Below, piece after piece: positions 11,770-34,084 of a stretch of DNA of 64,000 nt. The notes under the pieces are model-generated. The model worked only from the letters and a program-made list of their open reading frames with translations. It was not told where the DNA came from and made no database searches. Where the stretch lies: contig CALKFG010000007.1 in the NCBI GenBank assembly GCA_938084575.1, positions 1-64,000 of the forward strand, given 5' to 3'. The first letter of the stretch is position 1, and every line of letters starts with the position of its first letter. Origin of the DNA: an uncultured Hyphomonadaceae bacterium (GTDB lineage Bacteria; Pseudomonadota; Alphaproteobacteria; Caulobacterales; Hyphomonadaceae). The position numbers and the translations under genes are program-made.

Positions 11770-11783
11770 GGCATCACACTTGC
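11770..11783 (+). promoter_or_regulatory. Candidate sigma-54 promoter of gspG
   Basis: ACCGGCATCACACTTGCTTTG has GG at 11770-11771, ten bases, and GC at 11782-11783. It differs from the XRE promoter at only two positions within the 18-base core and has the same 58-base distance to the ATG at 11841. It would make gspG, and with it the type II secretion pilus, dependent on RpoN and an enhancer-binding activator not found in the window. Confidence 0.55.
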
Positions 11784-11840
11784 TTTGATAGAGGCAGCGC
11801 GGCCAGCCGCATCAACAGAACAGTGTGACGAGGGACCAAT

Positions 11841-12338
11841 ATGACCATTTCACTGATTAAACGCCTCTCCGGGATTCGGGTCTGGACTCAAGGTCCAGCT
11901 GGCGTTTCACGCCACCATAGTCCGGCAAAGCGGAAGGGTCAGGCTGGATTCAGCTTGATGGAGGTGCTGATCGCGCTTCTGATCCTGAGCCTAGTTGTCT
12001 CGGTCACCGGGCCAAAATTCATCGGTTACCTGTCACGTGCCAAGGTTCAGACGGCCGACGTGCAGATCGAAAATATCGAAGCGGCCGCCGACTTGTTTCT
12101 GCTTGATACAGGCCGGTACCCGAATGAAGCCGAGGGACTGGAAATCCTGGTCAAGAATACCGGCAATGTTCCCGGCTGGTCTGGTCCGTATCTGAAGGAT
12201 GGGGAAGTGCCGCTCGACCCATGGGGTGCGCCTTATGGGGTCAAGCGGGCCGCTGACGGCATGGGGATCGAGGTCTTCACCCTCGGCCCGGATGGCGGCA
12301 ATGCAACGCTGACAGGGGGACAGGCCAACACGTTTTAA
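11841..12338 (+). CDS. gspG: Type II secretion major pseudopilin GspG
   Basis: The 165-residue preprotein has a prepilin cleavage site KGQAG|FSLMEVLIALLIL with Glu at +5, and the C-terminal GspG core: NIEAAADLFLLDTGRYP, the EGLEIL loop, GWSGPYL, PLDPWGAPY and FTLGPDGG. After processing it would form the T2SS pseudopilus that pushes substrates through the secretin. The leader before the cleavage site is 36 residues, much longer than the usual 6-10, and no internal start codon shortens it. AGGGA at 11831-11835 is the ribosome binding site. It is about 12 kb from the other gsp genes, with the multicopper oxidase locus between. Confidence 0.93.
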   Translation: MTISLIKRLSGIRVWTQGPAGVSRHHSPAKRKGQAGFSLMEVLIALLILSLVVSVTGPKFIGYLSRAKVQTADVQIENIEAAADLFLLDTGRYPNEAEGLEILVKNTGNVPGWSGPYLKDGEVPLDPWGAPYGVKRAADGMGIEVFTLGPDGGNATLTGGQANTF

Positions 12339-12463
12339 AGGTGGCCCTGACCTTCCCTCGTGAAGGCAGGAACCAGGAAGAGACGCCGGGGTCTGGTGAC
12401 CCCGGCGGTTTAAGCCGGTCTGCCGCTTGCCGTGTTTTGCCGGGTGCTTTATCGCTTCGGCCC

Positions 12464-13396
12464 ATGGACATCTCAAAAACGCTTTTTGCCCTTCTTGCAG
12501 GACTTGGCTTTACCGCCGCTCCTGCAGCAGCCCAAACATCATCCGCCAATGAATATGGCTCGACTGCGATATCGGTCGAACAGGTTCTGGACACCCATAC
12601 CGACACGCTGGGCCGGTCTTTTGACTATGCCGACGGCCCCCCGCACATTCTGGGGTCGGAAATCGTCCTTGCGGCCGGGGCCTCCACGCCACTGCATTTC
12701 CACCCGGTCCCGCTTCTCGTCTATGTCGAGCGTGGCGCCATCCGGGTCACCTATGAGGGGCAAGAAGACAAGGTCTACCGGGCCGGTGACAGTCTTGTCG
12801 AAGCCATTAACGTCGTCCATCAGGGTTTTGGCCTGCCGCCGGACGGGGTTCGCCTGATCGGGTTTGATCTTTCGAACGCGACCCTTCCGTCAACGGTGCC
12901 GCTCGACCCGCCCCTCTCGGGAGGGGTGCCCGAGCCTCTCAGCATTCTCAAAGTGCTGATGTTACGCCGGCTGCAGCTCATAGACGCCGCCGCCACGGCG
13001 CACCCGGACATGGAGGCGGACGCGCCCGCGCGCGACAGCCACCAGATCTCGGAATTTGCCCGGTCCGCCGACCGGCTTCAGATCGACCCCCGACAGGCTG
13101 AACATTTTATCCGCATGCAGATTGAAGCCGGCAGAACCCTGAAGCGGGACCGGACGGCCACAGCGGCAGATCACAACATGGATCATGCGCCGGCACCCCG
13201 CCCAGACCAGACCGATCTGGCGACCGAGATCGACCTGCTGACTCCGGTCCTGGCGTCTCTGCTCAAGCGGGTCCTGGGTACCCGCCCGGTGACGGAAACA
13301 GCTTCGACTGCCTTTCGGCTCGCCCCGTCGGGCGACGCGGCGCTCTCCAGGGCCTGGCAAACCGCAGCAGAAGGCCTGGCACCCGCGCCAGAGTGA
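12464..13396 (+). CDS. Exported cupin / chorismate-mutase-like fusion
   Basis: The 310-residue protein has a signal peptide (MDISKTLFALLAGLGFTAAPAAA). A single cupin barrel (about residues 60-135) follows with metal ligands His78, His80, Glu89 and His119. A helical region (about 160-228) matches the secreted AroQ-gamma chorismate mutase pattern: LRRLQLIDAAATAHPD, ISEFARSADRLQIDPRQAEHF and RMQIEAGR. The Lys usually found in the first helix appears to be His, so catalysis is uncertain. It sits between gspG and the cytochrome/SCO genes. A periplasmic metal-binding or sensing role is possible. The ATG at 12464 is chosen because the signal peptide begins there. Confidence 0.75.
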   Translation: MDISKTLFALLAGLGFTAAPAAAQTSSANEYGSTAISVEQVLDTHTDTLGRSFDYADGPPHILGSEIVLAAGASTPLHFHPVPLLVYVERGAIRVTYEGQEDKVYRAGDSLVEAINVVHQGFGLPPDGVRLIGFDLSNATLPSTVPLDPPLSGGVPEPLSILKVLMLRRLQLIDAAATAHPDMEADAPARDSHQISEFARSADRLQIDPRQAEHFIRMQIEAGRTLKRDRTATAADHNMDHAPAPRPDQTDLATEIDLLTPVLASLLKRVLGTRPVTETASTAFRLAPSGDAALSRAWQTAAEGLAPAPE

Positions 13397-13430
13397 TGCC
13401 TGCCCGGTGCGGCGCTGCGGGACGGCGCGC

Positions 13431-14789
13431 TTAGCGGCCGCCCGGCCGGTCGAGCTCAATCCAGGTCGCGTCCGGACTGAAGGTCTGGCTTTGCGCCGAG
13501 AAGGCGACGATCCGGGCGCCGGCATTGCCAACCCGTCGATTACGCCCGAAGGACAAGGGTGGTCCGACCGCCCCCATGAAACGGTCAAACGCCTCAATCT
13601 GTTCAGTAAAAACCGTGCGGCTGAGGGTCCGGCCTGACTGCATCAGGCCTTCAATCGCGACGCTCATCAGGGAATAGGCCTGCGCCTGCAGCATCACAGC
13701 CTGGCCGGGCGCAATCTGTTTCGATCGCATGAAACGCACAAAAGCATACTGAGACGGCTGCGGGATCTGATCGGCGCCCGACGGCAGCGCGACATAGGTC
13801 TCGTCCGGCAGGCGGCGCCTTTGCGCGGCGCTCAGGGCTTCAAAGGCAGACTGGGTCAAAAAAGCGGGCAGGTCTGGTGGCAGGTCATCGAGGCAGTCGG
13901 GGGTTACGACCAGATACGCCATCTGGACCGGCGCACCGTCACAGCTCCAGTCCGACAGTTTTACCAGGGTCAGTTCCCGGGCGGCATAGGCTCTCAGGGC
14001 CGCTGCCTGTTCTTCCCGGCCGGAATACAGACTGTAGGCCCGGCGCCCAAGCCCGGTTGGCCCCTGAGTTTGAAGCAACAGGATATCATCGGCAGGTGGC
14101 CGTTCAGGCCGGCCGAGACTCATCACCAGAAAGGCCGTGTCAATCGCCGGGTCGTCGGGCCGGGTGACGTGGACAATGTCGAGCTGGCGGCCATGGATCC
14201 CGCCCTGAAGATTGATATCCTCGACCAGGCCATCGACGACGGCCATCACGCCGCTGCGCAGCACGGGACGGCTGGCCGTGTCGCCCGTCTGCAGGAAAGC
14301 GAGGCGAAGCGTTTTATCGGATATGCCCGGATCCTGTGGGTCCTGAACGGTCGCCAGAAAGTGCCAGACGTCTGCAATCGCCTGGTCCGAAAACGCATAG
14401 CGCGGCATCGCAACATCGAGGTCATTCCCGGCCGGATCGGTGCCCTCGCGCAGGGCCCGGCCAAACGTCTCCAGCGTGTAGGGGCCGCGCTGGCGTCCGC
14501 GTTCGCCGAACACATCATAAGGCTTGGTCAGGGCTGTGCGCGACAAATTCGGCGGCAGGATACCCCGCTCCGGCTTGCCTGCGCCGAACTCGCCATGACA
14601 GTTTGCACAGGGAAAGACCCTGGCGGGCAGGCTGGTCCCGGTCGAGGAAATGGTCGCCAGCGTCGTGTCGAGCGCAGACGGGTCTTCGCCGAAGTAAATT
14701 GCCTTGCCGCGCGCTTCCGGCGACTGACCAACAGCCGGCATCCCTAAGCAAAGGGCCGCGAAAAGGGCGACGCTAGCCGACCGTATCAT
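13431..14789 (-). CDS. Cytochrome c fused to a periplasmic binding-protein-like domain
   Basis: The 452-residue protein has a signal peptide (to about residue 22) and a class I cytochrome c domain with haem motif CANCH (Cys61, Cys64, His65) and likely axial Met128. From about residue 150 to the C-terminus it has a receptor-type, type-1 periplasmic binding-protein fold (KTLRLAFLQTGD, GIHGRQLDIVHV). It would be a periplasmic electron carrier joined to a ligand-binding module. Its start overlaps the end of the SCO gene by 17 bases, so the two are co-translated. It is the last gene of the minus-strand group and could take electrons from the multicopper oxidase reaction or feed them to it. Confidence 0.82.
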   Translation of the reverse strand: MIRSASVALFAALCLGMPAVGQSPEARGKAIYFGEDPSALDTTLATISSTGTSLPARVFPCANCHGEFGAGKPERGILPPNLSRTALTKPYDVFGERGRQRGPYTLETFGRALREGTDPAGNDLDVAMPRYAFSDQAIADVWHFLATVQDPQDPGISDKTLRLAFLQTGDTASRPVLRSGVMAVVDGLVEDINLQGGIHGRQLDIVHVTRPDDPAIDTAFLVMSLGRPERPPADDILLLQTQGPTGLGRRAYSLYSGREEQAAALRAYAARELTLVKLSDWSCDGAPVQMAYLVVTPDCLDDLPPDLPAFLTQSAFEALSAAQRRRLPDETYVALPSGADQIPQPSQYAFVRFMRSKQIAPGQAVMLQAQAYSLMSVAIEGLMQSGRTLSRTVFTEQIEAFDRFMGAVGPPLSFGRNRRVGNAGARIVAFSAQSQTFSPDATWIELDRPGGR

Positions 14790-15597
14790 TGGCAATGTCT
14801 ATAATCTGTGCCGCGATGACATTGGGTGGCAAATGCGACGGCACCTTGCGCCAGCGGGCCGTCGTGACGTTGCCGACGATGAGGTTGGTGAGATGCTGCT
14901 CTTTCTCGAGGATATTGCCAAGCTTGCCGGACACAGCCCCGATCGCTTCCGGAGATCCCGTGTAGAAAGCCCAATGGTCCTGCGCTTTGAACTTCCGGCG
15001 ATAGGCCGACAGGACATCGGGCGTGTCGGTTTCCGGGTCGACCGTGATCGAGACGAAGCGAATGTCCTCGCTGAGCTGATCGCCCATCTCATCCTGCACC
15101 TTGCGGAGCTGGGCATTGATCAGGGGACAGGCATCCGGGCAGCTGGTAAAGGTGAAGCTGATCACCACGGTTTTTCCGGCCAGGATATCTGAATAAAAGC
15201 GCTGCTCTGCGCCGTCATGGCGCACCAGAACCGTATCGGTGAAATACGCCCGCGCCTGCGGGTCGGATGCCGCGGCCTCTACTGACTGGGTCTCGATGAT
15301 TGCGTCTGCCGGCATGGAGGATGGGGCGGCGTCCTGACCGGCATGACCAGCATGCGCGCCCGGATCGTCCAGCTCAGTGCCGTCCCCCTGGCTGGCTGGC
15401 ATGCCATGCCCGGCATGGTCAGACTGATCGGCGGCCATATGACGGATCTGTGCCTCGGGAGAGGCCTCATCCATATTCATGGTGGCCTGAAGCGTCAGGC
15501 CCGGCGCGGCCGGCGCAGCGGATACAGAGGTGGCCGCCAAATCGTTTTCGGCCGAACATGCCGTCAGCGCCAGAACCAGTAAAACAACAGAACGCAT
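14773..15597 (-). CDS. SCO1/SenC-family copper chaperone lipoprotein
   Basis: The 274-residue lipoprotein (lipobox LTAC, Cys14) has a His/Met-rich linker at about 40-95 and a thioredoxin-like SCO domain. The copper-binding CxxxC is Cys153/Cys157 in TSCPDAC, and the partner His is His235 in EQHLTNL. SCO proteins insert copper into CuA centres or protect it in the periplasm. Between a giant copper oxidase and a cytochrome gene, this one probably metallates the oxidase. The ATG at 15597 follows a strong GGGAGG site. It begins 10 bases after the preceding SCO gene ends. Confidence 0.92.
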   Translation of the reverse strand: MRSVVLLVLALTACSAENDLAATSVSAAPAAPGLTLQATMNMDEASPEAQIRHMAADQSDHAGHGMPASQGDGTELDDPGAHAGHAGQDAAPSSMPADAIIETQSVEAAASDPQARAYFTDTVLVRHDGAEQRFYSDILAGKTVVISFTFTSCPDACPLINAQLRKVQDEMGDQLSEDIRFVSITVDPETDTPDVLSAYRRKFKAQDHWAFYTGSPEAIGAVSGKLGNILEKEQHLTNLIVGNVTTARWRKVPSHLPPNVIAAQIIDIANDTVG

Positions 15598-15607
15598 CCG
15601 CACCTCC

Positions 15608-16330
15608 CTAATGCCCGGCATGATGGTCGTGCTGCGCCGCGCGCGCCTGCAGCAGCTCTCGCACACGCCGGGTCACCATATCAGGATTGGGCATGCCGAA
15701 ATGTCTGGAAAATGTCCCGGTCGCGGCGTCCCCGATGATGATCATGGGGGCGTGGTCCTCGGGATTGGTCGTGTAGGCGTCGAGCGCGACCAGAAGCTCA
15801 TCCATGGTCCTTTTTTCACCCGTCAGGAACACCCAGTCGGCAGAGCGCTGGGCGGCGAAGCGCGCCAGCCGCTCAGGATCGTCATTATTTGAATCGATGC
15901 TGAGAGACACGAATTGAAGCCTATCAGGTGCGACATCCTGAAGATCGGCACGGGACCGGGTCAGCAAGGTGGTGGTGACCGGACAAATGGTCGTGCAGCT
16001 GGTGAAGATGAAGTCGAAAACCACAATCTTGTCGCCCACAACATCATCGACAAAGTTCAGCGCGGTGCCTGTCTGGTCGAGCACCGGAAGGTTGAGAAGC
16101 TTGACATCCGCCGGTTGCACGGAGGGCGCCATTTCCATCCCGGCCTGATGCTGCGCATGGCTGTCATGACCGCTATCGGCCTGATGCTGCACGTGGCTGT
16201 CATGACCGCCATCGGCCTGATGATGATCCGCGAAGGACGCGCCCTGCCCAAGGCACAGCATACTGCCCGACACAATCAGGGCCTGAAGACAGGTTTTGTG
16301 TCCGGGTGTGGCACCGCGTCTGTCCAGCAT
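15608..16330 (-). CDS. SCO1/SenC-family protein with His-rich tandem repeats
   Basis: The 240-residue protein has a signal peptide ending near ASFA and a His-rich segment at 35-64 built from repeated units (ADGGHDSHVQH and ADSGHDSHAQH). A SCO domain follows with Cys112/Cys116 (TSCTTIC) and His193 (EDHAPM), and the tail HDHHAGH is again His-rich. Both ends could buffer copper ions for the CxxxC site. It is the first of two SCO paralogues in a row; the two differ in anchoring (secreted versus lipoprotein), which suggests a relay. Confidence 0.92.
   Translation of the reverse strand: MLDRRGATPGHKTCLQALIVSGSMLCLGQGASFADHHQADGGHDSHVQHQADSGHDSHAQHQAGMEMAPSVQPADVKLLNLPVLDQTGTALNFVDDVVGDKIVVFDFIFTSCTTICPVTTTLLTRSRADLQDVAPDRLQFVSLSIDSNNDDPERLARFAAQRSADWVFLTGEKRTMDELLVALDAYTTNPEDHAPMIIIGDAATGTFSRHFGMPNPDMVTRRVRELLQARAAQHDHHAGH
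16141..16230. repeat. 36-base tandem repeat encoding His-rich segment
   Basis: Two 36-base units (16141-16176 and 16177-16212) and a partial third encode the repeated GHDSHxQHQAD block of the SCO protein. The units differ at only a few bases, so copy number may vary between strains. Confidence 0.75.
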
Positions 16331-16369: not shown

Positions 16370-18250
16370 TCAGTCTTTCACAAAAATCGACAAATAAGGC
16401 AGCATTGAGAATTGCAGGCCTTCCTCCGGCACAGCCAGATAGAGGTAATAAACGCCTTCAGTCTCGGGGGTCATCTCAACCGCATAGGTCGCACCGCCGA
16501 CATGCCGCACCGTGCGGCGGCTGCGCGCCTCGCCCGGCGCCCTGTAGCTCAGAGCCTCAACGGCATAGGGAAGGTCCGGCACCGCCCCATCCTGTTCGGT
16601 CAGGGTGAACTGGATCTCAAGCGGGGCGCCGGATGGAAACCGCTGACCGCTGCCCGTCAGATAGGTCAGGGTCACGGGAAGCGCATCACTGTCGGCCTCC
16701 GGGTCGGTCTCGGCGGCAAACTGGAAGCACTCGATGATCTGGGGCGCATCCATGGTCATGATGAACTGGAAAAAGCCACTGGCCGGGACCTTGAACCGGG
16801 ACCTGTAAAGGCCCGGCTCTTCTTCCTTGATGGTCCGGTCGGTTACGATGGCCGAAATCGGCCGGTGCCCGTAATTCCGGAAACTTCCCATCGGGGCGTT
16901 CATGCCCTCCATATAGTAGTAAACGGTGGCATCCCCGGGGCTGACAATCAGGTTCGCCGCCTCCGTCACGGCGGGGGCGAACAGGCCGGCCGGCGACAGC
17001 CGCGGCGATGTGTTCGGCGCCCGCTCTCCAATCGGGATGGTCTGGACAATTGGCACGCCGCTTTCCTCAATGGAACTCAGCCGCACCAGCGACACCTCAG
17101 ATGTATCGAGAGCACGGATGTAAGCATAGCTCCGCGAAAATGAGACATGAAACGGCCGGCCTTCAATGGCGAGCCTGTGAACGCGCTGATTGTTGGCTGT
17201 GTCGATAATAGACACCGAATTGTCGCTGGCATTGGTGATGAACACATAGCGCTCATCCGGCGTGGTCTTCATCGGGCCGAGACCCGGCTCGAGATCAAGC
17301 GTGCGTACATCCCGGCTCTGGGGATCGACAGACAGCAGCTGGCCAACCGCGCCATCGGCGACATAGACCGATTTCGACAGGTCAGAATAGGCCAGGGAAA
17401 TCGGGCTGCCGTCCATCTCGATCGTATCAATAATCGACAGGCTGGCGACGTCGATCACCGATACGGTTCCGTCGCGCCGGTTGGAGACAAAGGCCAGGGT
17501 CGAGTCAGCGTCAAAGGTCATCTCGTGATGCCCCTGCCCGGTCACCAGCGTCTTCACCGGCTCCCGTGTGACCGCGTCGAGCACGGTGACACCTGATCCC
17601 CGCCCGGTATGCCCGACCCAGAGATAACGGCCGTCCGGCTGCAGGGCGATCCGGTTCGGACGGGCCCCGGTCGGAATCGACTGGACATATTTGAAGGTTT
17701 TCAGATCAACGACGCCGACCGCGTCATGGTCTGGCAGGACAACAAACAGGGTGCTTTCATCCTGAGATGTCATCCAGTCTTCGCCCCGACCGGGCAGGAC
17801 AATCTGGGTCAACAGCTTGGTGATGCCACGAATGCCGATAATCGGATCGATGACGGCAAGCGACGCATCATGGTTCATGACGACCAGATAGTAGCTGTTC
17901 AGATCGATCATCGGCCGGATACCGACATAGCCGCTGAGATAGGTCGACGCCTTCTGCCGGCACTGCTGCCGGGCCATATCGGCGGTGGCGAGGTCCTCCT
18001 CATAGGCCGGATCGATCCAGGCCGCCGGATAAAGGCCGGAGACGGGCGCGCCGGTCTCAGCATCGCTGATCTTCAGAGTGATTTCGGCAATGTCGCCCGT
18101 GTACAGGACATCCCGTTCTTCCCGGACGGACGCGATATCAAACTCAACCCGCAAACCTTCCCGGACGAAGACATCGCTGTCCTCTGTCGCCACAGCGAGG
18201 GGCGCCGCCCCTAAACAGACAAGCAAAAAGCCGAGAACCAACCGACGCAT
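16370..18250 (-). CDS. YVTN/cytochrome-D1-like beta-propeller protein
   Basis: The 626-residue exported protein (signal peptide MRRLVLGFLLVCLGAAPLAVA) has an N-terminal beta domain, then at about 130-400 a propeller of repeated blades with YVTN-type sequences (TLFVVLPDHDAVGVVDL, RYLWVGHTGRGSGVTVLD, TLAFVSNRRDGTVSVID, RYVFITNASDNSVSIID). The C-terminal Ig-like domains may bind a partner. Such propellers accompany periplasmic oxidoreductases and surface proteins, but no cofactor ligand is clear here. It follows the giant oxidase on the same strand, behind a strong hairpin, and precedes the SCO genes. A docking or electron-transfer scaffold for the oxidase is an inference. Confidence 0.83.
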   Translation of the reverse strand: MRRLVLGFLLVCLGAAPLAVATEDSDVFVREGLRVEFDIASVREERDVLYTGDIAEITLKISDAETGAPVSGLYPAAWIDPAYEEDLATADMARQQCRQKASTYLSGYVGIRPMIDLNSYYLVVMNHDASLAVIDPIIGIRGITKLLTQIVLPGRGEDWMTSQDESTLFVVLPDHDAVGVVDLKTFKYVQSIPTGARPNRIALQPDGRYLWVGHTGRGSGVTVLDAVTREPVKTLVTGQGHHEMTFDADSTLAFVSNRRDGTVSVIDVASLSIIDTIEMDGSPISLAYSDLSKSVYVADGAVGQLLSVDPQSRDVRTLDLEPGLGPMKTTPDERYVFITNASDNSVSIIDTANNQRVHRLAIEGRPFHVSFSRSYAYIRALDTSEVSLVRLSSIEESGVPIVQTIPIGERAPNTSPRLSPAGLFAPAVTEAANLIVSPGDATVYYYMEGMNAPMGSFRNYGHRPISAIVTDRTIKEEEPGLYRSRFKVPASGFFQFIMTMDAPQIIECFQFAAETDPEADSDALPVTLTYLTGSGQRFPSGAPLEIQFTLTEQDGAVPDLPYAVEALSYRAPGEARSRRTVRHVGGATYAVEMTPETEGVYYLYLAVPEEGLQFSMLPYLSIFVKD

Positions 18251-18261
18251 AACCAACTCCC

Positions 18262-18295
18262 AAAAAAAATGGAGCAGGACATTATACCCTGCTCC
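18262..18295 (-). terminator. Intrinsic terminator/attenuator after the giant oxidase gene
   Basis: On the minus strand GGAGCAGG-N9-CCTGCTCC (18295-18271) is followed by A and eight T residues (18270-18262), a textbook Rho-independent terminator. It lies between the oxidase stop and the start of the propeller gene, abutting that gene's GGGAG ribosome binding site. Readthrough would give lower expression of the propeller, SCO and cytochrome genes than of the oxidase. Confidence 0.85.
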
Positions 18296-18333
18296 ACTTG
18301 CTGTCATTTAAGTTTGATTCGTATGGGCCGTCA

Positions 18334-21300
18334 CTACCCTCCCAGCAAACCGAAGAGATCGCGGACACCGCGGCGGCCACGCCGCCGAACCGGTGCTTCC
18401 TCTTCGACGACGGCGGGCTCAGGCTCGACGGCCGGACCAGCATCCGCAGGCGTTTCGGCTGCAGAGGGCTCAATGGTCGGCTGAGGTGTGTCGACCGCAG
18501 CCCCCTCAACCCGAACAATGCCCCACAGACCGTTCTGGTTCCCGAAGGATGCCATGTCACGATACAGATAGTCACCGCCAATCTTCATCGGGCCACCCGC
18601 TGTGGTCAGGATGTTCCAGGCCGACGGAGGCAGGATGTTATCCTGCGTCGAGGTCTGCCGCTGACTGACCGAATACTGCATCGTGTCGGATGGGAAGTCC
18701 TTGGTCACGAATGGCATGTCGGTCCAGTTGTGCCCGATAATGCCCAGCGTCGTCCCACGTGCATAACCTGCCGGCACCGTGACGCGGAACCGCATCTCTT
18801 CACCCGGGGCCGCCGTGTAGATCGGGGTTTCCGGGTCGCCGCCTGTCAGCGAGTTGGAATAGGCCTTATACATGTCCGGGATAGACGCCAGCCCTGGCAG
18901 GGCGACCTCGAACTGACCCGCTGTTCCGGGCTCGGCGTGACCACCGCCGCCTGGCCCCCAGTCTGCTCCGGCGTCGAAGCCGTAGCGGAACCAGAGTGGC
19001 TCAGCCGTGTAGTTGATCGCCGCAGCGCCCGCATCATGGGCATCCTCCGGCACACCAAAGCCTTCACCGGCGATATTCGGGACAGGCGAACCGTCCTTGT
19101 AGCGCAGGTTCACCGCCTTGTGGAACACCATGGCGAAGTCACGGAATGTCGTTTCACCATCCGCCAGGGTCACCGTACCCTGAACACGCGTTCCGGCATC
19201 AGCCTCGAAGGTCGACCCGACCGGCAGAACATGGATCTGGCCAAACAGACCCTTCTGGCCCTGCTTAATCACGTCCGAAGGTGTAATCGGCGCCGCACCA
19301 TATTCCACCTCGTTTGCCACCAGCTCGAACCGGTCACCCGTCAAGGCCCCCATGCCCGGATTTCCGGCGCGAGGCCCAAGCTCCAGATCACCCGCATAGT
19401 AGCGATAGGTTCTCGACGCACCCGGCGCAATCGTCTGGACCGGGTTGATGCCGACATTCATACCGTCATCGCGGGAAATATCATATTCCAGCAACTGTGT
19501 GTGGAAGCCGACATGGCTCGAGGCCCGAATGAGGTTGTTGTTGAAGGTTGTCGGGCCCTGCGGCGAGTCACGGTCACGAATAACCGTGTAATGCTGGGTC
19601 ACGAAAGACGCCAGATCCGGAACCACCTCTGGGAGGCGGTTGCGCACGGTGACTTCCAGACACTGCCCGGCATTCACCCGAAGGACCAGGGGCTCGAACT
19701 TGTACCCGTCAGGAACCTTCACATTGCAGCTCAGATTGCTGACACCGCCGCGGCTCTCACGGCACATGGACCGGTCGACTGGCGTCACAATATTGGCTTC
19801 AAGATCCTCGGTCGGGACATAGACCAGGGCGGTCGGGTCATGCAGAGGGCCCTGCTCTCCATTATTGAGCCGCTGGCGACGGGTATTGTACTGCAGCGTA
19901 CCGCCGGTCTCGTTGGGCACCGCACCGACATGCATTTGTGCGGTGTAGTCGCCTGGAACGATGGTCACATCGCCTGGTGCGCTGGCAACATCATTCACAG
20001 CCACAGCGGTGATGTCATAGGTCACGGTTTCCGCACTGACCGGGCAAACCCCGTTAAACTCCCGACGGTTTGCGATCGAGATCGCGCGGGACCGAGCATT
20101 GTTGGGCAGCGAGGCCAGATCGCTCTGGGCCGTATCATAAGAGCGTAAGACACCCCAGGTTCCGGTCCAGTAGCCTTCCTGCGACCCGTCCCAGACATAG
20201 AGGTAGTCTGAAACACCCCGGGCCTGGTCGACATCCCCGAAAATCGAGGTGGCGAAGGACGCTTTTTCCGACAGAGCCACCTGCATGGAAGCTTTCCAGC
20301 CACTGTTCTTGGCCGAACCGAAAGCGGCACCGCCCTCGAGCCATTTGACCCCATTGACCGCCGCACCGTGCTCATGCTCGTGCGCACCGCCCTGCATGCG
20401 CACCTTGATCAGGTCGCCAGCATTCGCCCGCATAATCGGCGTGAACGGGTCGCCGTCGCGAATGTCCCCGGTCAGCTCTGGATAGGGTGTTGCGCCGATC
20501 TTCGTGTTGAACTCGCGCAGAACACGGTCCGTACGGGTCTGCAAGGCAAAGGCCAGATCGCCCGCCAGGCCATCAGCCTGTGACCCCCGCTTATTGTCCG
20601 GACCAATCTTGTTCGGATCATAGACGCGGTAGCCGACCGGCTCGTTACGGTAGTTGATCAGGAAGGTCCCGATATCGGCCGCAGACACAGCCTCAGGACA
20701 GGGCCGTGGGACACCGCCGGGGCAGACCGAGTGGATGCGGGCCGCGTCCGGGAAAGGCGCGGACTGCCGGTGCGACGGGTTCAGCGCGTAGCGGAAGGTC
20801 TCGTCGGACACCGGAACCGGAACACCATTCTGGTCGACGCCGGCATAGACACCCTGATTGTAGGCATGGGCGAAGTCCTGCGCCTCGAAGTAGAATTCGC
20901 GATAGCTGTCGTCGGAGCCATCCTTGTCGATATCCCCTGCAAGGATGATCGCCTGCCAGGAGGTCGGACCACCATCATGACGGGTGTACATTTCCTCGCC
21001 GGTTTCGTTGTGCAGCCAGCGCGAGCCAGCCGGATTGATCAGCAGCGTGGCGTAGAGGCCGACCTGCTGGTGGGTACTTGGTCCAAAGTGATCATGGGTA
21101 AAGGTAATCCCAAGGCCACGGTCGACACCCTCAATATTGTGAAGCGGGTCAACGAACCAGCGCTGAATATTGGTTCTCGCGCCCATATACTCACCCCGGG
21201 GACCGGCACCGAAATAGGGGTGCGGCTCGGCCTCAAGCTGGTCGTAACCGAGGTTGTTTTCGACCACGAAAAGGTTGATCGCCTCAATCCGGGCCCGCAC

Positions 21301-24126: not shown

Positions 24127-24215
24127 AAGAAACCCCCGAATCATATCTCCCCAGACCTATTCGACTTCACCAAAAAGACCTATCACCCGAATGGGGGGCT
24201 GGCGTGCTTAATTAC

Positions 24216-24255: not shown

Positions 24256-24309
24256 CATAGTCCTTCGCCAATTATTTATGTAACCGGCCGTTCAGCGCGA
24301 ATTCAAGGT

Positions 24310-25306: not shown

Positions 25307-25760
25307 TGGTATCTCCCTCAGCATCCTGCCAGGTTGAGACTCCGAGCAGCCAGTCAACCTCTAGGCGCCGTGTGGAACCGGACTGTTCGATCTCGAAGGT
25401 TCCGCCCGTGCTGCCCCCCTGAGGAAAGAAGGTGATCCCAGGCTGCAACAGGTCGCTGGCATAGGTCAGACGGACCTGCATATGGTCGGGAACCTTGACC
25501 GCGCCCGCCAAATTCTGGCCATGACCGACCAGTTTACGGTCCGGGTCAAAGCTCACAAACTTCGCTTCTCCGGTCACCAGCGCCGCGCTTCGGGCATCTT
25601 CCATCATGGACATTAAATCCTGGGCGAAGCGTTGCGCCTCTTTTGAGGGACTGGACCGGAACATGGCAGATGTCGTCATGGCCGTCGCCAAGGATACGAT
25701 CAGCAGTACGATCAGAACTTCAAGAAGGCTAAAGCCGGTTTGTTTGCTGTGGCAGGTCAT
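25293..25760 (-). CDS. gspH: Type II secretion minor pseudopilin GspH
   Basis: The 155-residue preprotein starts MTCHSKQTG|FSLLEVLIVLLIVSLATAMTTS with Glu at +5, followed by a GspH-like domain (QRFAQDLMSMMEDARSAALVTGEAKFVSFDPDRK). Its ATG (25760) shares the A of the gspF stop codon TGA. It would be a minor component of the pseudopilus. Confidence 0.85.
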   Translation of the reverse strand: MTCHSKQTGFSLLEVLIVLLIVSLATAMTTSAMFRSSPSKEAQRFAQDLMSMMEDARSAALVTGEAKFVSFDPDRKLVGHGQNLAGAVKVPDHMQVRLTYASDLLQPGITFFPQGGSTGGTFEIEQSGSTRRLEVDWLLGVSTWQDAEGDTNAAS

Positions 25761-26971: not shown

Positions 26972-28671
26972 TCTGCGACCCCCAAACCAACAACACGGAC
27001 GATTTCTTCATATGTCGTGATGCCCGCCATCGCCGCCTGCAGCCCCGACTGGCGCAGCGTTTCCATGCCATCCCCACGAGCTTTTTGAAGCAATTCCGGT
27101 TCGCTCGCGCCATCAATAATCGCCTTTTGAATGCCCGACGTGACCGGCAGCACCTCGGTTATGCAGACCCGACCGCGATACCCGGTCTGTCGGCAGCTGG
27201 GGCACCCCTTGGGCGCAGAGACGTGAGTGACCTGTCTGGCATCGAGCTCCCGCGCAAATGTTTCGCGGACATGGTGAGCAGCCGCCTCAGTTGTCTTGCA
27301 CTCAACGCAAAGACGCCGAACCAACCTCTGCGCGGTAATCGCGCGCAGAGAGCTTGCGAGCAAATAGTCTTCGACCCCCATTTCCAGCAGACGTGTAATC
27401 GTGCCCACCGCACTATTGGTATGCAGCGTAGACAGAACCTGGTGGCCCGTCAGAGACGCTTCAATCGCGATAGCCGCCGTTTCCAGGTCCCGGATTTCAC
27501 CCACCATGATCACATTCGGATCATGTCGCAGCATGGCCCGCAGGGATCGCGCAAAGTCGAACCCAATCTCCTGCTTGACCGGGACCTGGGTAATCCCGCT
27601 GATCTGATACTCGACCGGATCTTCGATCGAGATCAGTTTACGTTCTGGCGTCGCCATTTCCTGAAGCGCGGCATAAAGCGTCGTCGTTTTACCGCTGCCC
27701 GTTGGTCCGGTCACCAAAACGATCCCATTCGGCTGGTCCAGAGCGGTTTGGAGGCGCGCCAAAGCGGCGCCATGCAGACCAGCTTCTTTGAGCGAGGCAA
27801 ACGTCTTGGATTGATCCAGCAATCGAAGAACGAGGCTCTCACCAGAAAGCGTAGCGATGGTCGCCATGCGAATGTCGATATTTTTCCCGCTTATACGGGT
27901 CCGAATGCGCCCATCCTGTGGGATCCGGCACTCTGCAATGTTTAATCCCGCCAGCAATTTGAGCCGGGATACGACTGCGTCTGCTTTGGGCTGGTCGGCC
28001 AGGGGCGGAACCATCAACTGGCCGTCCACCCGCAACCTGACGGAGAGACGGCCTTCGGCCGGGTCGAGGTGTATATCCGACGCGCCCCACTCCACGGCCT
28101 GTCCCAAAAGACGTTCGACCCAATCCACGACGGGCGCACCGGCCGCCAGGTCCTGTAGCCGCTCCAGGTCCGCCTGACTGGTCAAGGCCCCTGTCGCTGG
28201 CCCTTCGACGGCCGCGACCTGATCATCCAGAGATTGAAGCCAGGTCAGCAAATCATCGCGGGCCAGCAGAACACGCTCGAATGCCCGACCCGTTTTGAAA
28301 TGAAACGTTGCATAAGTCTCGTCGTCAAAAGGGTCGCACATCACCAAAAGATCTTGCCCGGCCGCGTTCACCACCGGAGCCACCATCTTGGTTTTCAGAA
28401 ACTCAAGAGGGAAATGCTCCAGAAGCGCAGGCTCTGCCGGCAGGTCAGCCAGCGAAATCTGTCTCAGGCCCAGGCAGCTTGCTGACACCTCCAGAAGCTC
28501 ATCCTCAGAACAAATGCCCAGTTGCCTCAGAACCCAGAGAAGCGGCTTTCCGGTTTCTTCAGAATTCCGTTTTGCCCGATCAAATTCGGTCGTGGAAAGC
28601 TTTCCGTGATGAATAAGCTCCTGCCCGAACCTGTCGAGATCAGACTGAAAAGGGCTGTGGTCCTGAAGCAT
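26968..28671 (-). CDS. gspE: Type II secretion ATPase GspE
   Basis: The 567-residue cytosolic ATPase has an N-terminal T2SSE domain for binding GspL, then the RecA-like core with Walker A GPTGSGKTTTLYAAL, the Asp box IEDPVEY, Walker B and the His box MVGEIRDLETAAIAIEASLTGHQVLSTLHTNS. A four-Cys zinc motif (CVEC and CPSCRQTGYRGR) is typical of GspE. It heads the gspEFHIJ run on the minus strand, divergent from gspL on the plus strand across 172 bases. Confidence 0.95.
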   Translation of the reverse strand: MLQDHSPFQSDLDRFGQELIHHGKLSTTEFDRAKRNSEETGKPLLWVLRQLGICSEDELLEVSASCLGLRQISLADLPAEPALLEHFPLEFLKTKMVAPVVNAAGQDLLVMCDPFDDETYATFHFKTGRAFERVLLARDDLLTWLQSLDDQVAAVEGPATGALTSQADLERLQDLAAGAPVVDWVERLLGQAVEWGASDIHLDPAEGRLSVRLRVDGQLMVPPLADQPKADAVVSRLKLLAGLNIAECRIPQDGRIRTRISGKNIDIRMATIATLSGESLVLRLLDQSKTFASLKEAGLHGAALARLQTALDQPNGIVLVTGPTGSGKTTTLYAALQEMATPERKLISIEDPVEYQISGITQVPVKQEIGFDFARSLRAMLRHDPNVIMVGEIRDLETAAIAIEASLTGHQVLSTLHTNSAVGTITRLLEMGVEDYLLASSLRAITAQRLVRRLCVECKTTEAAAHHVRETFARELDARQVTHVSAPKGCPSCRQTGYRGRVCITEVLPVTSGIQKAIIDGASEPELLQKARGDGMETLRQSGLQAAMAGITTYEEIVRVVGLGVAE

Positions 28672-28843
28672 GGCGCTATCCGTAAATTGTGATCATTTCA
28701 TTCCGAAACGTCGGTAAAGGGGATATTTGCACGCGGTTCCAGAGACTTCGCTGTTCCGGCGAAACATTTTGACCCAGAGCCAATGATGAGGTTCACCGAC
28801 GCTCACTAAAAAACGTCATAAACCCAAACCAAGGGAAATAAAC

Positions 28844-29938
28844 ATGAGCACAGGAACTGGTTCCCTTAAGTCGAAGCTGAATCTGGGTTGGATCAACCTT
28901 CAGGACATCGGCAGTGCCTGGACCAGCACGCTTGCAATGACCAGCCCTCGCTGGTTGAAAAGAATGTTTATCAACGAATTACCGACCGCCATTCTCCGAC
29001 CGACTTCTGATGGTCTCGAACTGGTTCAGGAAGACGGCTTTCAGGCCATCAGGCCGGGCTCCAAAGAAGCCGCGCGCCTCTCCAAAGGTCACAAGATTGA
29101 TATCGCTTTACGACCCGACCAGATTTTCCAGCGCCAGCGCTGGCTGCCTCTGGCCTCTAGCCGGCGGTGGCGTTCGACGCTGGATCTTGATTTCCAGACC
29201 AATGCGCCTTTCTCTGCCAACGAAGTCGTCACCGATGTGTTTCTGGTTGATATCGCCCCAACAACCAAGCGCGGCCTGATCAAGCATGGCATCTGCAAGG
29301 TCGAGACAATCCGGGACGCAATCGCAAAGTGCCAACAGGCTGGTCTGACCCCCTCAAAAATCGGCGTCTTTGATCCCGACACATCCAGCGTGCAATATAA
29401 TTTCCTGCCTCGGTCGTCTTTTGGCCAGTTAAGCGTGCAAGCGAATTGGGCGAACCTCTGCCTGTTCGGTCTCATTCTTGGCCTCGGCCTGGCTGGGACC
29501 ACGAATTATCTCAGCGGCTTAACCGCCAGGCGCGCCGAAGTAAGCGCCCTCGTCCTCGCCAGCAAAGAGAGAGCGCTTCCGATTCTCCAGCAGCAGGAAG
29601 AGGCGGTCAATCTGGTCGCCCAGGATGAATTTCTGCGCTCAAACTTCCTCGACCGGAGGCGATTTAACAATGTTTATGAGGCGCTTACGCAAAGCCTGCC
29701 AGACGGCACAAGGCTGGAATCCTTAAACTACGACCCGGACCGTGTCCGCATTACAGGATACACCGACAATTCCGACACCATTATCGCAAGCTTGGAATCC
29801 GCCCAGCTGATCAACCGCGCCGCATTCTCGGCACCCCTCCGACGAAACACACGTTTCAACAGTGATCACTTCCAGATTGAGATCAGCCTGTCGAACTCGG
29901 TGGACGAGATCCAACTGACGGGGCTTGCAACACGATGA
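28844..29938 (+). CDS. GspL/PilN-like inner-membrane protein of the type II system
   Basis: The 364-residue protein has a cytosolic N-terminal domain (about 1-195), one membrane helix (about 203-222, LCLFGLILGLGLAGTTNYL), a coiled-coil segment and a periplasmic ferredoxin-like domain. The motif LTQSLPDGTRLESLNYDPDRVRITGYTDNS is the PilN/GspL signature. It would connect GspE to GspM. The start codon follows AAGGGA. It is the first gene of the plus-strand run L-M-C-D-K. Confidence 0.85.
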   Translation: MSTGTGSLKSKLNLGWINLQDIGSAWTSTLAMTSPRWLKRMFINELPTAILRPTSDGLELVQEDGFQAIRPGSKEAARLSKGHKIDIALRPDQIFQRQRWLPLASSRRWRSTLDLDFQTNAPFSANEVVTDVFLVDIAPTTKRGLIKHGICKVETIRDAIAKCQQAGLTPSKIGVFDPDTSSVQYNFLPRSSFGQLSVQANWANLCLFGLILGLGLAGTTNYLSGLTARRAEVSALVLASKERALPILQQQEEAVNLVAQDEFLRSNFLDRRRFNNVYEALTQSLPDGTRLESLNYDPDRVRITGYTDNSDTIIASLESAQLINRAAFSAPLRRNTRFNSDHFQIEISLSNSVDEIQLTGLATR

Positions 29939-30519
29939 GTATTCACCTTTCTCCCTCGAACAAGGGCGACGTCGTCAAGGCTTGGGCAATCCTGGGCGGG
30001 CTGACCGCGCTGCTGGGATCCCTGAGTGTCGGCGTTGTCCTTCATCACGGCAGCCAGACCAAGAACGATCTCGCACGGCTTGAGGCTGAGCTGGTCAAGT
30101 GGACCGCGATCGAACGCTCAGCAGAGCGGGTCTCGGACAATCTCGCGGCCGCAAGCCTGGGGGGCCTCCGACATGTCACCACATTCTATGCGGAGTCGGA
30201 AACTCAGGCGGGATCGCGTGTCCAAACCCTGATTCGGCGATCCCTTGAGCGGGCAGGCCTCGAGCTCAAAAGTCTGGAAGCCCTCGACCCGGTCACGCAT
30301 GATGCGATGAAATCGATTGGGGTAAACGTGGTTTTCGTAGCGCCCGTCGACGATCTGAACACCGCTCTTCGGGAACTGGGCAGCACCACGCCACGCCTGA
30401 CCATCGACAAAGTCAACATTCGACAAGTGTCGGGCAACCGGCGCGCAACCCGGCAGTCTGACCAGCGACAGCTGGAAGTCCGTGCTGACATTTATGCTTA
30501 TATGAGGCCCCAGCCATGA
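29935..30519 (+). CDS. GspM/PilO-like inner-membrane protein
   Basis: The 194-residue protein has one membrane helix near residues 13-38, a short coiled coil (KNDLARLEAELVKWTAIERSAERV) and a periplasmic ferredoxin-like domain ending LEVRADIYAYMRP. It starts with ATGA over the gspL stop. This size and layout suit GspM, the partner of GspL. Sequence identity to known members is too low for a firm symbol. Confidence 0.75.
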   Translation: MSIHLSPSNKGDVVKAWAILGGLTALLGSLSVGVVLHHGSQTKNDLARLEAELVKWTAIERSAERVSDNLAAASLGGLRHVTTFYAESETQAGSRVQTLIRRSLERAGLELKSLEALDPVTHDAMKSIGVNVVFVAPVDDLNTALRELGSTTPRLTIDKVNIRQVSGNRRATRQSDQRQLEVRADIYAYMRPQP

Positions 30520-30992
30520 AGAAGCTTATCGCGCTGCAACCCGAAACATGTGTCCTTGGCCTTGTCGCCGTCGGGGTTGCCTTTGGAAGCTTGTCCTTGT
30601 CGACACCTGCCGGCGTCAACGTGGGAGATGTGAAGCCCTATTTTGGCGGCCTGGCGACGGATTTCGCACCGCTCCCGGAACGGCAGCCCTTGGCCGGCAT
30701 TGACCACGAAACCCCGTTTGACTCGGCCGAGGACCGCCAGAGGCGGACCGCTGTTCTGACAATTGGGGATCCCTTCACCGGAGCTGCAGATCCAGCAACA
30801 CTTCGCCTTACCGGGATGATCGACAATGGGGCACTGCGAAAAGTCCTCATTCAAAATCTTTCAGAGGAAACCGCTACCTGGGTGTTAACGGGTGAGACAA
30901 TTTTTGGCTGGTCCGTTCAATCAATTACCAACCAAAGTGTGAGATTGGAAAGGGACGCACAAATGACAGAGCTTTTCCTCTATCCTGAGTAA
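30516..30992 (+). CDS. GspC/PilP-like HR-domain protein
   Basis: The 158-residue protein has an N-terminal hydrophobic helix (about 10-28) and a C-terminal small beta domain with LRLTGMIDNGALRKVLIQNLSEETATWVLTGETI, the homology region (HR) of GspC and PilP that touches the secretin. It lacks the PDZ or coiled-coil domain of full GspC. It probably links the inner-membrane platform to GspD. It overlaps gspM as ATGA and precedes the secretin gene by 24 bases. Confidence 0.72.
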   Translation: MKKLIALQPETCVLGLVAVGVAFGSLSLSTPAGVNVGDVKPYFGGLATDFAPLPERQPLAGIDHETPFDSAEDRQRRTAVLTIGDPFTGAADPATLRLTGMIDNGALRKVLIQNLSEETATWVLTGETIFGWSVQSITNQSVRLERDAQMTELFLYPE

Positions 30993-31016
30993 AGGCCTGC
31001 TACAGGGGGATCCCGA

Positions 31017-33209
31017 ATGACCAGGAGCCTGAAAGGCCAACGCGCACATATATCGCATAAGTTTCTTGGGGCCGCGATCTGCGCCCTGGGCGTATCTGGC
31101 TGTACACTGGCCGGATCCGATCATCACAACCAGGGCCTATCTGTGGCTATCCCACAGGATCAGTCCGGGTCAGCCCCGATGGGACAGATGCTCAAGCCGG
31201 ACCAGGGCCCTGCTTTGGGTCATGCATCACATTCCCCGGATCATTTCGCGTTTCGGGACGTTGCCGATTCAAACGCGGACCCGCTTGCCAACCTCGATCG
31301 CAGCGGCCGCCGGTCAGCGGCGAACATTAACCTTAATCTTGTGGGTGTCGAAGCCGGCGAGGCGATCAAGCAGATCCTTGGGCAGGTGCTCGAGCGGACC
31401 TATGTCATGGAGTATGAGCCGAGCGGGCCGATTACCCTGCAGACCGCCCGGAAAGTTGATGAAGAGACAGCCATAGAGCTGTTGAACATTGCCCTGTCCT
31501 CCGTCGGCGCAGCCATCTCGCAGCGGGGCGATTATTTCGTGATCCAGCGGCAGGCTGACCGCGGCGTGACCGCAGATGTCGAATTCCTGCAAGCCGGCGG
31601 TATCAGCGTTGGCGACAAGACCCGGGTCATCCCCATCAACTATGTCGACGCCGCCTCGATCGAAAATCTGTTCAAAAGTTTCCCGGACCAGTCGATCAAT
31701 GTGTCCAGCGATCCGAACCGGAACCTGCTGATTATTAACAGCGATACGGTGCCCCTCGACGATTTGGCGCAGATCGCCTCGGTGTTCGACAGAAACTGGC
31801 TGAAAGACATGTCCTTCTCGGCCACACCTGTGAAGTTCACCGCACCTGAGGATATCATTTCCGATCTGAATGCGATTTTTGCCCAGCAGGAAGGCTCACC
31901 CGGCCAGAACATGCTGCGCTTCCTGCCCATTCCGCGGCTGAATGCGATTGTGACGATTACCAAGAATCCCGAATATCTGGATGTCGCTGAGACATGGATT
32001 GGCCGTCTCGACCGGGAGCATGGCAAAGACACCAGTAAATTCTTTGTGATCCCGATCCAGCACCGCGACGCAGCGGAGATTGCAACCCTGCTCTCGACTG
32101 CCTTCCAGGACATGTTCAACGGCCCGGCCGGCGCGACCCCGGCCAGCAATAATCTGGAGCCCGGCACAGGAGCCGCCTTTGTCGAGACGTCGCCACAAAT
32201 GGCGGGCCCCGGACAACCATTCGGCTCGTCTGACGCCGGATCAAACTCCGCCAATGCGACAGGAAAGATCCGCATCTCGGCCGATACGACGAACAATTCG
32301 ATTATCGTTTATGCTGTGCCCGACCAGCTCGGCATGATTGAAGACATTGTCGAGCGCCTGGATATAGCGCCGGACCAGATTTACCTCGAGACAACCATCG
32401 CTGAGGTCACCCTCAACAATGACCTCGCTTATGGCCTGACATGGTTCTTCCAGAACGGCGAACTGTCGACCGGCTTTAGCGACATCCCGACCGGGGCCGT
32501 CAGCAATCGTTTTCCAGGCTTCTCAGCCCTGATTAATGGAGCGGATGCTCGGGTCGCGCTGTCCGCAGTATCGAGCATTACAGATGTAAAAATCCTGTCC
32601 TCACCATCCATTATGGTGCTGGATAATAAGACCGCCACCTTGCAGGTTGGTGACCAGGTCCCGATCGTGACGCAATCCTCCGTCAGTGTGGGCAACTCCG
32701 ACGCGCCGATTGTGAACTCGGTCTCCCTGCGTGATACCGGGATCATCCTGAATGTCACACCGCGTGTAAACGAGGAAGGAAAGGTCACGCTCGACATCGA
32801 GCAGGAAGTCAGCAATGTGGTCCCAACCATCTCTTCGGGCATTGACTCGCCCACCATTCAGCAAAGGCGCATCAACACGTCCGTCGCTGTCGACAGCGGC
32901 AAATCAATTGCACTTGGGGGCCTGATCCGGGAACGCGTGTCTGATAACACGGCCAAGGTCCCGTTCCTTGGCAGTATTCCTTTCCTCGGCAAAGCGCTGT
33001 TCCAGACAACCAATGACGTGAAGGAACGCACAGAATTGCTGGTCCTGATCACCCCGCGCGTTGTCCGCTCACAAACCGAAAGCGACGATATCATTGAGGA
33101 CCTCGCGCGCGACATGTCCTTTATCGAAGCGGTGTATGCCCATGAAGCAGAGCCGCTGGAAACCGTCGCCAAGGTCAGCACGGAGGCGGCTCAGGACACC
33201 ACATCATGA
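31017..33209 (+). CDS. gspD: Type II secretion secretin GspD
   Basis: The 730-residue lipoprotein (lipobox VSGC, residue 29) has N-terminal N0-N3 domains with Secretin_N repeats and a C-terminal secretin barrel. Diagnostic segments are VEAGEAIKQILGQVLERTYVME, VIPINYVDAASIENLFKSFP, VFVVIPIQHRDAAEIATLL-type linkers, DQIYLETTIAEVTLNNDLAYGL, VPIVTQSSVSVGN and SIPFLGKALF with KERTELLVLITPRVVR. It would form the outer-membrane exit for the multicopper oxidase. gspK starts inside its stop as ATGA. Confidence 0.95.
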   Translation: MTRSLKGQRAHISHKFLGAAICALGVSGCTLAGSDHHNQGLSVAIPQDQSGSAPMGQMLKPDQGPALGHASHSPDHFAFRDVADSNADPLANLDRSGRRSAANINLNLVGVEAGEAIKQILGQVLERTYVMEYEPSGPITLQTARKVDEETAIELLNIALSSVGAAISQRGDYFVIQRQADRGVTADVEFLQAGGISVGDKTRVIPINYVDAASIENLFKSFPDQSINVSSDPNRNLLIINSDTVPLDDLAQIASVFDRNWLKDMSFSATPVKFTAPEDIISDLNAIFAQQEGSPGQNMLRFLPIPRLNAIVTITKNPEYLDVAETWIGRLDREHGKDTSKFFVIPIQHRDAAEIATLLSTAFQDMFNGPAGATPASNNLEPGTGAAFVETSPQMAGPGQPFGSSDAGSNSANATGKIRISADTTNNSIIVYAVPDQLGMIEDIVERLDIAPDQIYLETTIAEVTLNNDLAYGLTWFFQNGELSTGFSDIPTGAVSNRFPGFSALINGADARVALSAVSSITDVKILSSPSIMVLDNKTATLQVGDQVPIVTQSSVSVGNSDAPIVNSVSLRDTGIILNVTPRVNEEGKVTLDIEQEVSNVVPTISSGIDSPTIQQRRINTSVAVDSGKSIALGGLIRERVSDNTAKVPFLGSIPFLGKALFQTTNDVKERTELLVLITPRVVRSQTESDDIIEDLARDMSFIEAVYAHEAEPLETVAKVSTEAAQDTTS

Positions 33210-34084
33210 ACCGGCTTCTGCGCCTTTTCGCAAAGGATGAGGATGGCAACGTCGTCATTTATATTGCCGGCGCCTTGCTGATCCTTGGCTTCATTGCGGC
33301 GGATCTGCTCCACGCCGCACGGCGCGACCTTCGGACAAATCAAGCCGCCTTCGAGCGGCTTGAGCTCGAAAACGCCTCGGAGGCAGGCGCGCGTTTGGGA
33401 GCCGCTCTCGCGGATGCGGTGCAACCGGATGAGGTCGTGGTCCAATACCTTGACTGTCAGTACGGGCCCGGAGACCTTGCTATTACCATTCGCCCCGTAA
33501 CCGGGCTATTCGACGTGAACTCAGGTCGAATCGAAGACCTGAACATACTTCTACAGGCCCTGTCAGTGGATGAAAAGACGCTGTCCCGGGTCCTGGCGGC
33601 CTATCGCGCCAAGACAGAACTGGTCAATCACCCGGAGGCGGAAACAAACAATCCGTCTTTGGTCTTCCCCCAGCCTTATTTCAATCAGATCGGCGACTTT
33701 CGTTATCTCGACGGGGTCAGCGATGCCTTGTTCGAACAGTTACGCTATTATCTGACGGCGGAGTCGTATCTCAGCCAAATGCAATTTCACTTTGCGCCAG
33801 AGCCTCTGAAAACCTTTGTTGAAGAGACCTATGGCCCGTCCCGGCTGAATCCAAGCCAGCAGGCCAGATCACTCGACAAGCTGGCCCTCCAGATCGTTTC
33901 CTCAGCCTATGAGCGCTCTTCTCTTCAGCACTCGCAGATTTTTGTCATGTCTGAACCCGTCTCTGTTGATGGCGCTCGCCTGATTCTGGACGATTTTCAG
34001 GCTCCCGAAGTCGGCCGTGCCAGGCTGACTGACCAGGGCATGACCCCCCTGCCGCCCTGTCTCGAGCTTATTCAGCCCGGTTGA
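33206..34084 (+). CDS. gspK: GspK-like minor pseudopilin
   Basis: The 292-residue protein has a prepilin-like N-terminus (KDEDG|NVVIYIAGALLILGFIAADLLHAARRDLR) lacking the usual Phe and Glu+5, as is common in GspK. A large globular domain follows (TGLFDVNSGRIEDLNILLQAL, ALFEQLRYYLTAESYLSQM) that fits the GspK/SAM-like core which caps the pseudopilus tip. No gsp gene follows; the run of secretion genes ends here. Confidence 0.82.
   Translation: MNRLLRLFAKDEDGNVVIYIAGALLILGFIAADLLHAARRDLRTNQAAFERLELENASEAGARLGAALADAVQPDEVVVQYLDCQYGPGDLAITIRPVTGLFDVNSGRIEDLNILLQALSVDEKTLSRVLAAYRAKTELVNHPEAETNNPSLVFPQPYFNQIGDFRYLDGVSDALFEQLRYYLTAESYLSQMQFHFAPEPLKTFVEETYGPSRLNPSQQARSLDKLALQIVSSAYERSSLQHSQIFVMSEPVSVDGARLILDDFQAPEVGRARLTDQGMTPLPPCLELIQPG

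Follow-up and report, generated by a model that had tools for sequence, protein, structure and literature searches.

The window, a 64,000-nt stretch of DNA from an uncultured Hyphomonadaceae bacterium (CALKFG010000007.1, positions 1 to 64,000), contains at 11770..34084 a locus in which the gene for a giant MnxG-like multicopper oxidase lies among genes of a type II secretion system (T2SS). The host genome is 2.33 Mb long, spread over 16 contigs and 96% complete. The original prediction listed the oxidase, two SCO copper chaperones, a β-propeller, a cytochrome c fusion, a cupin protein and a set of gsp genes; checks of open reading frames (ORFs) together with Pfam and NCBIfam searches found every one of them in place (Table 1), and the observed content of the locus is confirmed. 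The unit is nevertheless larger than that list, which missed linked curli genes. On one strand lie, in order, gspE-F-H-I-J, the oxidase, the propeller, the two SCO genes and the cytochrome fusion, with no gap wider than 165 bp, the widest being directly before the oxidase. The genes gspL-M-C-D-K are transcribed divergently from gspE-F-H-I-J; past the cytochrome gene come gspG and the cupin gene.

The oxidase ORF encodes 1936 aa in full; the originally reported size of 1930 residues is a count from the second Met. For the MnxG assignment we used NCBIfam model NF041487, which has a curated equivalog cut-off of 3100 bits. The oxidase covers the entire model (positions 1-1894 of 1894, via residues 34-1880) with 2229 bits and, since it misses the cut-off, we file the protein as MnxG-like rather than as MnxG. 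As a calibration, the same model gives 3927 bits to a P. umsongensis protein, 2430 to the gammaproteobacterial homolog of locus L074 and 2343 to that of Anaeromyxobacter. A PDB search matched 9bxa (MnxG; 2.5e-79), and a Pfam search of the oxidase returned zero matches at E ≤ 0.01. Twelve positions that we take to be copper sites (H474, H477, H479, H528, C529, H530, H534, M539, H919, H921, H1017 and H1019) are identical in all 80 sequences of an alignment of the window protein with 79 relatives, one of 80 relatives having been dropped as too short; H534 and M539 fall within the search pattern that retrieved these relatives. The earlier description of the oxidase as MnxG-like agrees with both the full-length match and the 12 of 12 copper-motif positions kept. 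As judged by eye, its N-terminus is predicted to carry a Sec-type signal peptide.

The predicted model of the propeller (pLDDT 83.7) was matched by Foldseek to 1l0q (3.9e-20) and resembles YVTN, N2O-reductase and cd1 propellers. The binding-protein domain of the cytochrome fusion matched PF13458 under the cut-off, and the predicted model of the fusion (pLDDT 83.3) has a fold resembling the type I binding protein 4n03 (3e-11). For comparison beyond the family we took the best 80 of at least 555 confirmed relatives of the oxidase with their loci, a choice that skews the sample to close relatives and Pseudomonas (65 of the 80 are from Pseudomonadaceae). Among these 80 loci, a propeller match is present in 72, an SCO match in 69 and a cytochrome fusion in 68, with CXXCH kept in 68 of 68 fusions. 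The cupin gene found a single weak match in the compared relatives' loci (L208, 29%), and it probably lies outside the core of the module.

Family cut-offs are passed by GspD, GspE, GspF and GspG. For GspK, counterparts were matched in G006, G814, G822 and G837, with no match in G019, G825 and G826. No prepilin peptidase is encoded within the locus; two A24 prepilin peptidases are encoded on other contigs of the genome, which also has a second, ordinary T2SS on contig C4. Scanning positions 23900-29000 for promoters and terminators gave counts not above those of shuffled sequence (1 versus a mean of 2.1, and 5 versus a mean of 6.2).

Gene order in the family and beyond

Our samples comprised 61 relatives, 105 family genomes, and a wider set of 385 class and 398 phylum genomes. 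Three genera recur below: g1 (the window genome, G006 and G024), g5 (which includes G814, G825 and G826) and the sister genus g4. The oxidase was found in four of the 61 relatives, and only these four have a GspE scoring above 500 bits, the next best reaching 378. Any oxidase match at all is rare in the wider set (3/385 and 3/398, the window's own genome being counted). In the family sample, ten genomes carry the oxidase and all ten have gsp genes beside it. A close GspD, defined in this comparison as E ≤ 1e-100, occurs in 14 of the 105 genomes, namely in 8/10 oxidase-positive and 6/95 oxidase-negative ones; five further oxidase-negative genomes have a GspD between 1e-50 and 1e-100. The two oxidase-positive genomes that lack a close GspD are G024, where the first 103 GspD residues are present at a contig end, and G815, where gspE, F and H (L206) and gspM and L (L073) are present near a contig start. 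Family genomes share kinship, so these co-occurrence counts do not represent independent events.

A search of other genomes for the gene order, proposed with the original prediction, found it repeated in Hyphomonadaceae relatives. In G019, G814, G822, G825 and G837 the order is gspG,(K),D,C,M,L, divergent from gspE,F,H,I,J, oxidase, propeller, SCO, SCO, cytochrome, csgF, csgG and curlins; G815, G826, G024 and G006 fit it as far as the compared stretches extend. Such repetition in other species argues for more than chance. The position of gspG, on the other hand, varies: the window and G006 alone have it on the side of the cytochrome gene, and it lies past gspD, on the opposite side, in G019, G814, G822, G825, G826 and G837. 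Enclosure of the oxidase by its gsp genes, as first described, is therefore a local trait, and the conserved one is adjacency.

For the sample of 80 loci, a gsp match was counted at E<1e-6 within a flank of at most 10 kb and reports similarity to the window genes only; seven of the loci (L067-L073) belong to family genomes and are counted in the family figures too. By this measure 70 of 80 loci have a gsp match, or 63 of 73 once the family loci are removed, including 60 of 65 from Pseudomonadaceae. Where at least 8 kb is available on both sides, 51 of 54 loci have a match, and in 43 of the 80 gsp genes occur on both sides. Of the ten gsp-negative loci, seven are truncated on one or both sides. 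In Pseudomonas L079, gspF-gspG (7264-9057) and gspE (at about 23 kb) flank an mnxG-type operon with the same giant oxidase, propeller and SCO companions as the window; these gsp genes may correspond to the Xcm genes of P. putida. In the flanks compared, Pseudomonas loci differ from the window in having gspF-gspG upstream and/or gspE downstream together with a SurA-like gene, in place of a near-complete gsp set; no SurA-like gene is present among the scanned window ORFs. In the gammaproteobacterial locus L074 (181-8467), an extended gsp cluster and a gene that is SurA-like by its sequence start lie beside MnxG.

We also built a GspE tree from 51 of 102 rows, leaving out seven duplicates and 44 further mnx-linked sequences, mostly from Pseudomonas. 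Both the Hyphomonas mnx-linked clade and the Pseudomonas-type clade were recovered at 100/100, and L074 stood apart on a long branch.

The remark that no described locus with this exact arrangement was known is too strong. Passages of PMC8218464 describe the mnxG operon of P. putida GB-1 and Pseudomonas sp. OF001 with a propeller (lactonase family), SCO and ABC-type genes, and its giant MnxG oxidase, propeller and SCO companions are shared by the window. De Vrind et al. (2003) report that P. putida GB-1 needs a separate Gsp-related pathway to secrete its Mn-oxidising factor; the Xcm cluster of that strain is mentioned in a passage of PMC4509608, and a section of PMC3056050 covers P. putida mutants in secretory pathways and in ccm. 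A further precedent comes from an alphaproteobacterium, Iodidimonas, whose IOX is an extracellular copper oxidase of iodide and phenolics; in the relevant parts of PMC9415286, the iox cluster likewise joins copper oxidase, SCO and flanking gsp genes, and the need of the gsp genes for IOX secretion is called unclear. Reportedly, the Xcm genes of P. putida form separate partial clusters, namely an xcmT1-xcmS pair and, next to csg-like genes, an xcmX cluster, whereas the window has one contiguous locus. The OmpB/OxpG system of Geobacter sulfurreducens also invites comparison. It differs in being linked, as reported, to the reduction of insoluble electron acceptors (Mehta et al. 2006). Among open-licence papers, we found none joining mnxG with type II secretion, and curli and an Mn-oxidizing multicopper oxidase came up together only in separate sections of one text.

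Curli genes and flanking genes

To the left of gspG in the window lie csgF, csgG and three curlin-repeat genes. The curli genes share a contig with the oxidase in 8/8 informative family loci (the window, G006, G019, G814, G815, G822, G825 and G837), the stretches of G024 and G826 ending too early to be informative. They adjoin the cytochrome gene in G019, G814, G815, G822, G825 and G837; in G006 they lie ~14 kb from it, and a csgF match was not found there. Beyond the family, csgG and curlin matches occur in one Pseudomonas locus (L076). CsgE is not among the scanned window ORFs, a genome-wide CsgE search not having been made. P. putida strains carry csgEFG and csgAB clusters, according to a section of PMC3056050.

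A LuxR-type response regulator (3990-4682), possibly CsgD-like, is divergent from csgF. Between the curli genes and gspG, a helix-turn-helix protein (10948-11379) has a 58% match 3' of the cytochrome gene in L067/L027 and is a possible local regulator. Left of the curli genes, a phage-type integrase (687-1973) stands next to a tRNA-Arg call (2051-2125) with an unusual-looking 5' half; the pair may mark the right-hand end of an element that extends leftward. A genomic island was considered and set aside, because the tRNA 3' end occurs only once in the window and no island borders could be established. To the right of gspK are a VWA/CoxE-like protein (34236-35471), with no match in the relatives' loci, and a hybrid histidine kinase (35487-37139), with weak matches (25-34%) in some of them.

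Table 1. Genes of the oxidase, secretion and curli cluster in the window
Feature	Position	Strand	Basis of naming
csgF, curli export	4965..5555	+	PF10614 2e-34
csgG, curli outer-membrane channel	5452..6498	+	PF03783 3.8e-59; sole CsgG match in genome
Curlin-repeat protein 1	6567..8576	+	PF07012 7.5e-51
Curlin-repeat protein 2	8599..9681	+	PF07012 2.3e-28
Curlin-repeat protein 3	9683..10186	+	PF07012 1.3e-9
gspG, major pseudopilin	11841..12338	+	TIGR01710 100.6 bits (cut-off 88.85)
Cupin-domain protein	12341..13396	+	PF07883 2.9e-8
Single-heme cytochrome c and type I periplasmic-binding-protein domain fusion	13431..14795	-	PF00034 22.9 bits (cut-off 21.3); CANCH
Second SCO1/SenC	14773..15666	-	PF02630 2.2e-21; lipobox-like N-terminus by eye
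SCO1/SenC copper chaperone, His-rich N-terminus	15608..16330	-	PF02630 2.7e-15; CXXXC in sequence
β-propeller of mnxG-type operon	16370..18307	-	YNCE PF21783 1e-12; 1l0q 4e-25
MnxG-like giant multicopper oxidase	18334..24144	-	1936 aa; NF041487, PDB 9bxa
gspJ	24310..24975	-	T2SS protein J model 3.8e-9, under cut-off
gspI	24938..25357	-	N_methyl; XpsI model 9.8e-7, under cut-off
gspH	25293..25763	-	PF12019 25.8 bits (cut-off 21)
gspF	25760..26971	-	PF00482 1.1e-46
gspE, ATPase	26968..28671	-	PF00437 4.1e-128
gspL	28844..29938	+	PilN PF05137 5.2e-6; position
gspM	29935..30519	+	PF10741 1e-15; NF040576 77 bits (cut-off 60)
gspC	30516..30992	+	Position and order in relatives; no significant family match
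gspD, full-length secretin	31017..33209	+	TIGR02517 395 bits (cut-off 351)
gspK	33206..34084	+	Position and order in relatives; weak family match, 0.022

Proposed function and its alternatives

We consider it probable that the module makes an MnxG-like metal oxidase, most likely one that acts on Mn(II), and exports it from the cell. The oxidase would reach the periplasm by the Sec route, where the SCO pair may supply copper; the propeller may aid assembly or handle electrons, as may the cytochrome c/binding-protein fusion. Type II systems carry folded proteins out of the periplasm, which fits copper loading by SCO proteins ahead of export. From the gene content we infer that the folded, metal-loaded oxidase would exit via the adjacent T2SS, with pseudopilins processed by a prepilin peptidase from another part of the genome, and that outside the cell it would oxidise Mn(II) with O2. 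Curli may offer an extracellular fibre surface, perhaps holding the enzyme or the oxide. Tentatively, one could go further and regard the T2SS and curli (the type VIII secretion system, T8SS) as one mineralising organ, in which a cargo-swappable exporter, handling MnxG here and in g4 a different copper oxidase with a heme peroxidase next to it, would deliver MnxG to curli fibres encoded in the same locus, Mn oxide then forming on them; this is a possibility that we rate well below an even chance. Under such an arrangement, the cytochrome c of the operon would explain the need of P. putida Mn oxidation for cytochrome c maturation.

Several observations weigh against the reading as an export module for an Mn(II) oxidase. 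With a score of 2229 against the equivalog cut-off of 3100 bits, Mn(II) as the substrate is not assured. In G190 and G526, whose oxidases are more distant, propeller and SCO genes were matched but gsp genes were not, within the stretches compared, and the oxidase of G584, which reaches a contig end, has no propeller, SCO or gsp match. Three loci with 10 kb on both sides (L077, L108 and L129) also have no gsp match. All 23 mnx-linked GspE sequences form one clade in just 2% of 200 bootstraps; constraining them to one clade is not rejected by the AU test (p 0.27 with 23 rows, 0.171 with 22 rows, without L074), so that a single origin of the Hyphomonas and Pseudomonas mnx-linked GspE is neither shown nor rejected. 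Finally, all six oxidase-negative genomes with a close GspD belong to g4, and in some of these the T2SS has other neighbors. Our comparison of g4 loci covered G854, G855, G856, G861 and G863, with G859 left out. In G854 and G863, the neighbors of the close T2SS are a multicopper oxidase encoded by two genes, an SCO and an animal-type heme peroxidase that bears RTX repeats (L200, 1188-11665; L205, 5371-10611); the peroxidase has 2387 aa in G854 and is cut by a contig end in G863. We presume that this RTX heme peroxidase resembles MopA; the G854 protein would then place a MopA-type heme peroxidase near a close T2SS, and there is none in the window. Next to gspH, G855 encodes a GMC oxidoreductase together with a gluconate-dehydrogenase subunit, and G856 has a neighbor resembling, by its sequence start, the gluconate-dehydrogenase subunit, its gspD side being cut by a contig end. 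Neither G855 nor G861 shows a match to the oxidase/SCO/peroxidase set on the gspD side of the stretches compared.

The different neighbors in g4 weaken the notion of a T2SS dedicated to MnxG and fit either an exporter of extracellular oxidases or a general one. The refuting condition set with the original prediction, homologues nested with other substrates, gave a mixed answer. What stood of the proposed dedication is the tie of the oxidase to an additional T2SS by position and phylogeny, and ten of ten oxidase genomes with gsp genes beside it; what did not is exclusivity, as the g4 T2SS lies, without MnxG, beside a different multicopper oxidase (G854, G863) or a GMC oxidoreductase (G855). The T2SS might even be a general second exporter with several cargoes, the oxidase being a neighbor and at most one client. 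The mixed set of genes near the g4 systems and the additional T2SSs of the order (L055-L064), which have no oxidase-operon or g4 oxidase matches in the stretches compared, point in that direction. We nevertheless find this unlikely, given the close same-strand linkage, the recurrent pairing of the two across two genera, MnxG with this T2SS, and the gsp-like genes beside MnxG in most Pseudomonadaceae loci. It is also conceivable, if rather doubtful, that the same module exports an oxidase of iodide, Fe(II), Cu(I) or phenolics and not of Mn(II), as the sub-threshold MnxG score would allow; the Iodidimonas oxidase, with its SCO and gsp neighbors, acts on iodide and phenolics according to PMC9415286. 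The same paper gives IoxA and its partner IoxC as 62 and 71 kDa, as against 1936 aa and a full-length MnxG match in the window, a comparison by size alone; moreover, the companions in the window resemble those of the Pseudomonas mnxG operon.

That the oxidase stays periplasmic or bound to the outer membrane, with the gsp genes building a pseudopilus-like fibre, would suit a locus in which curli and pseudopilin genes, both fibre-related, occur together. We hold it to be improbable, as the locus encodes a secretin of full length and a GspM that exceeds its cut-off, as secretion systems do, and the published P. putida pathway concerns secretion. A chance neighborhood of unrelated clusters, for which nothing was found to speak beyond the window itself, is hardly credible: the order is repeated in Hyphomonadaceae, most Pseudomonas loci examined have gsp-like genes, and a hand estimate, based on two other GspE-like ATPases in 6.7 Mb, puts the chance of one falling in a 25.7-kb stretch at <1%.

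An oxidase beside gsp genes is thus an idea with precedents; what the window adds is an oxidase, an export system and curli genes gathered in one contiguous cluster. The exporter of bacterial Mn oxidases, the part played by cytochrome c maturation and the means by which oxide is retained outside the cell are long-open points, and such a cluster makes them accessible to direct gene-removal tests. Our analysis also suggests that one secretion-system lineage may have specialised on metal-loaded oxidases.

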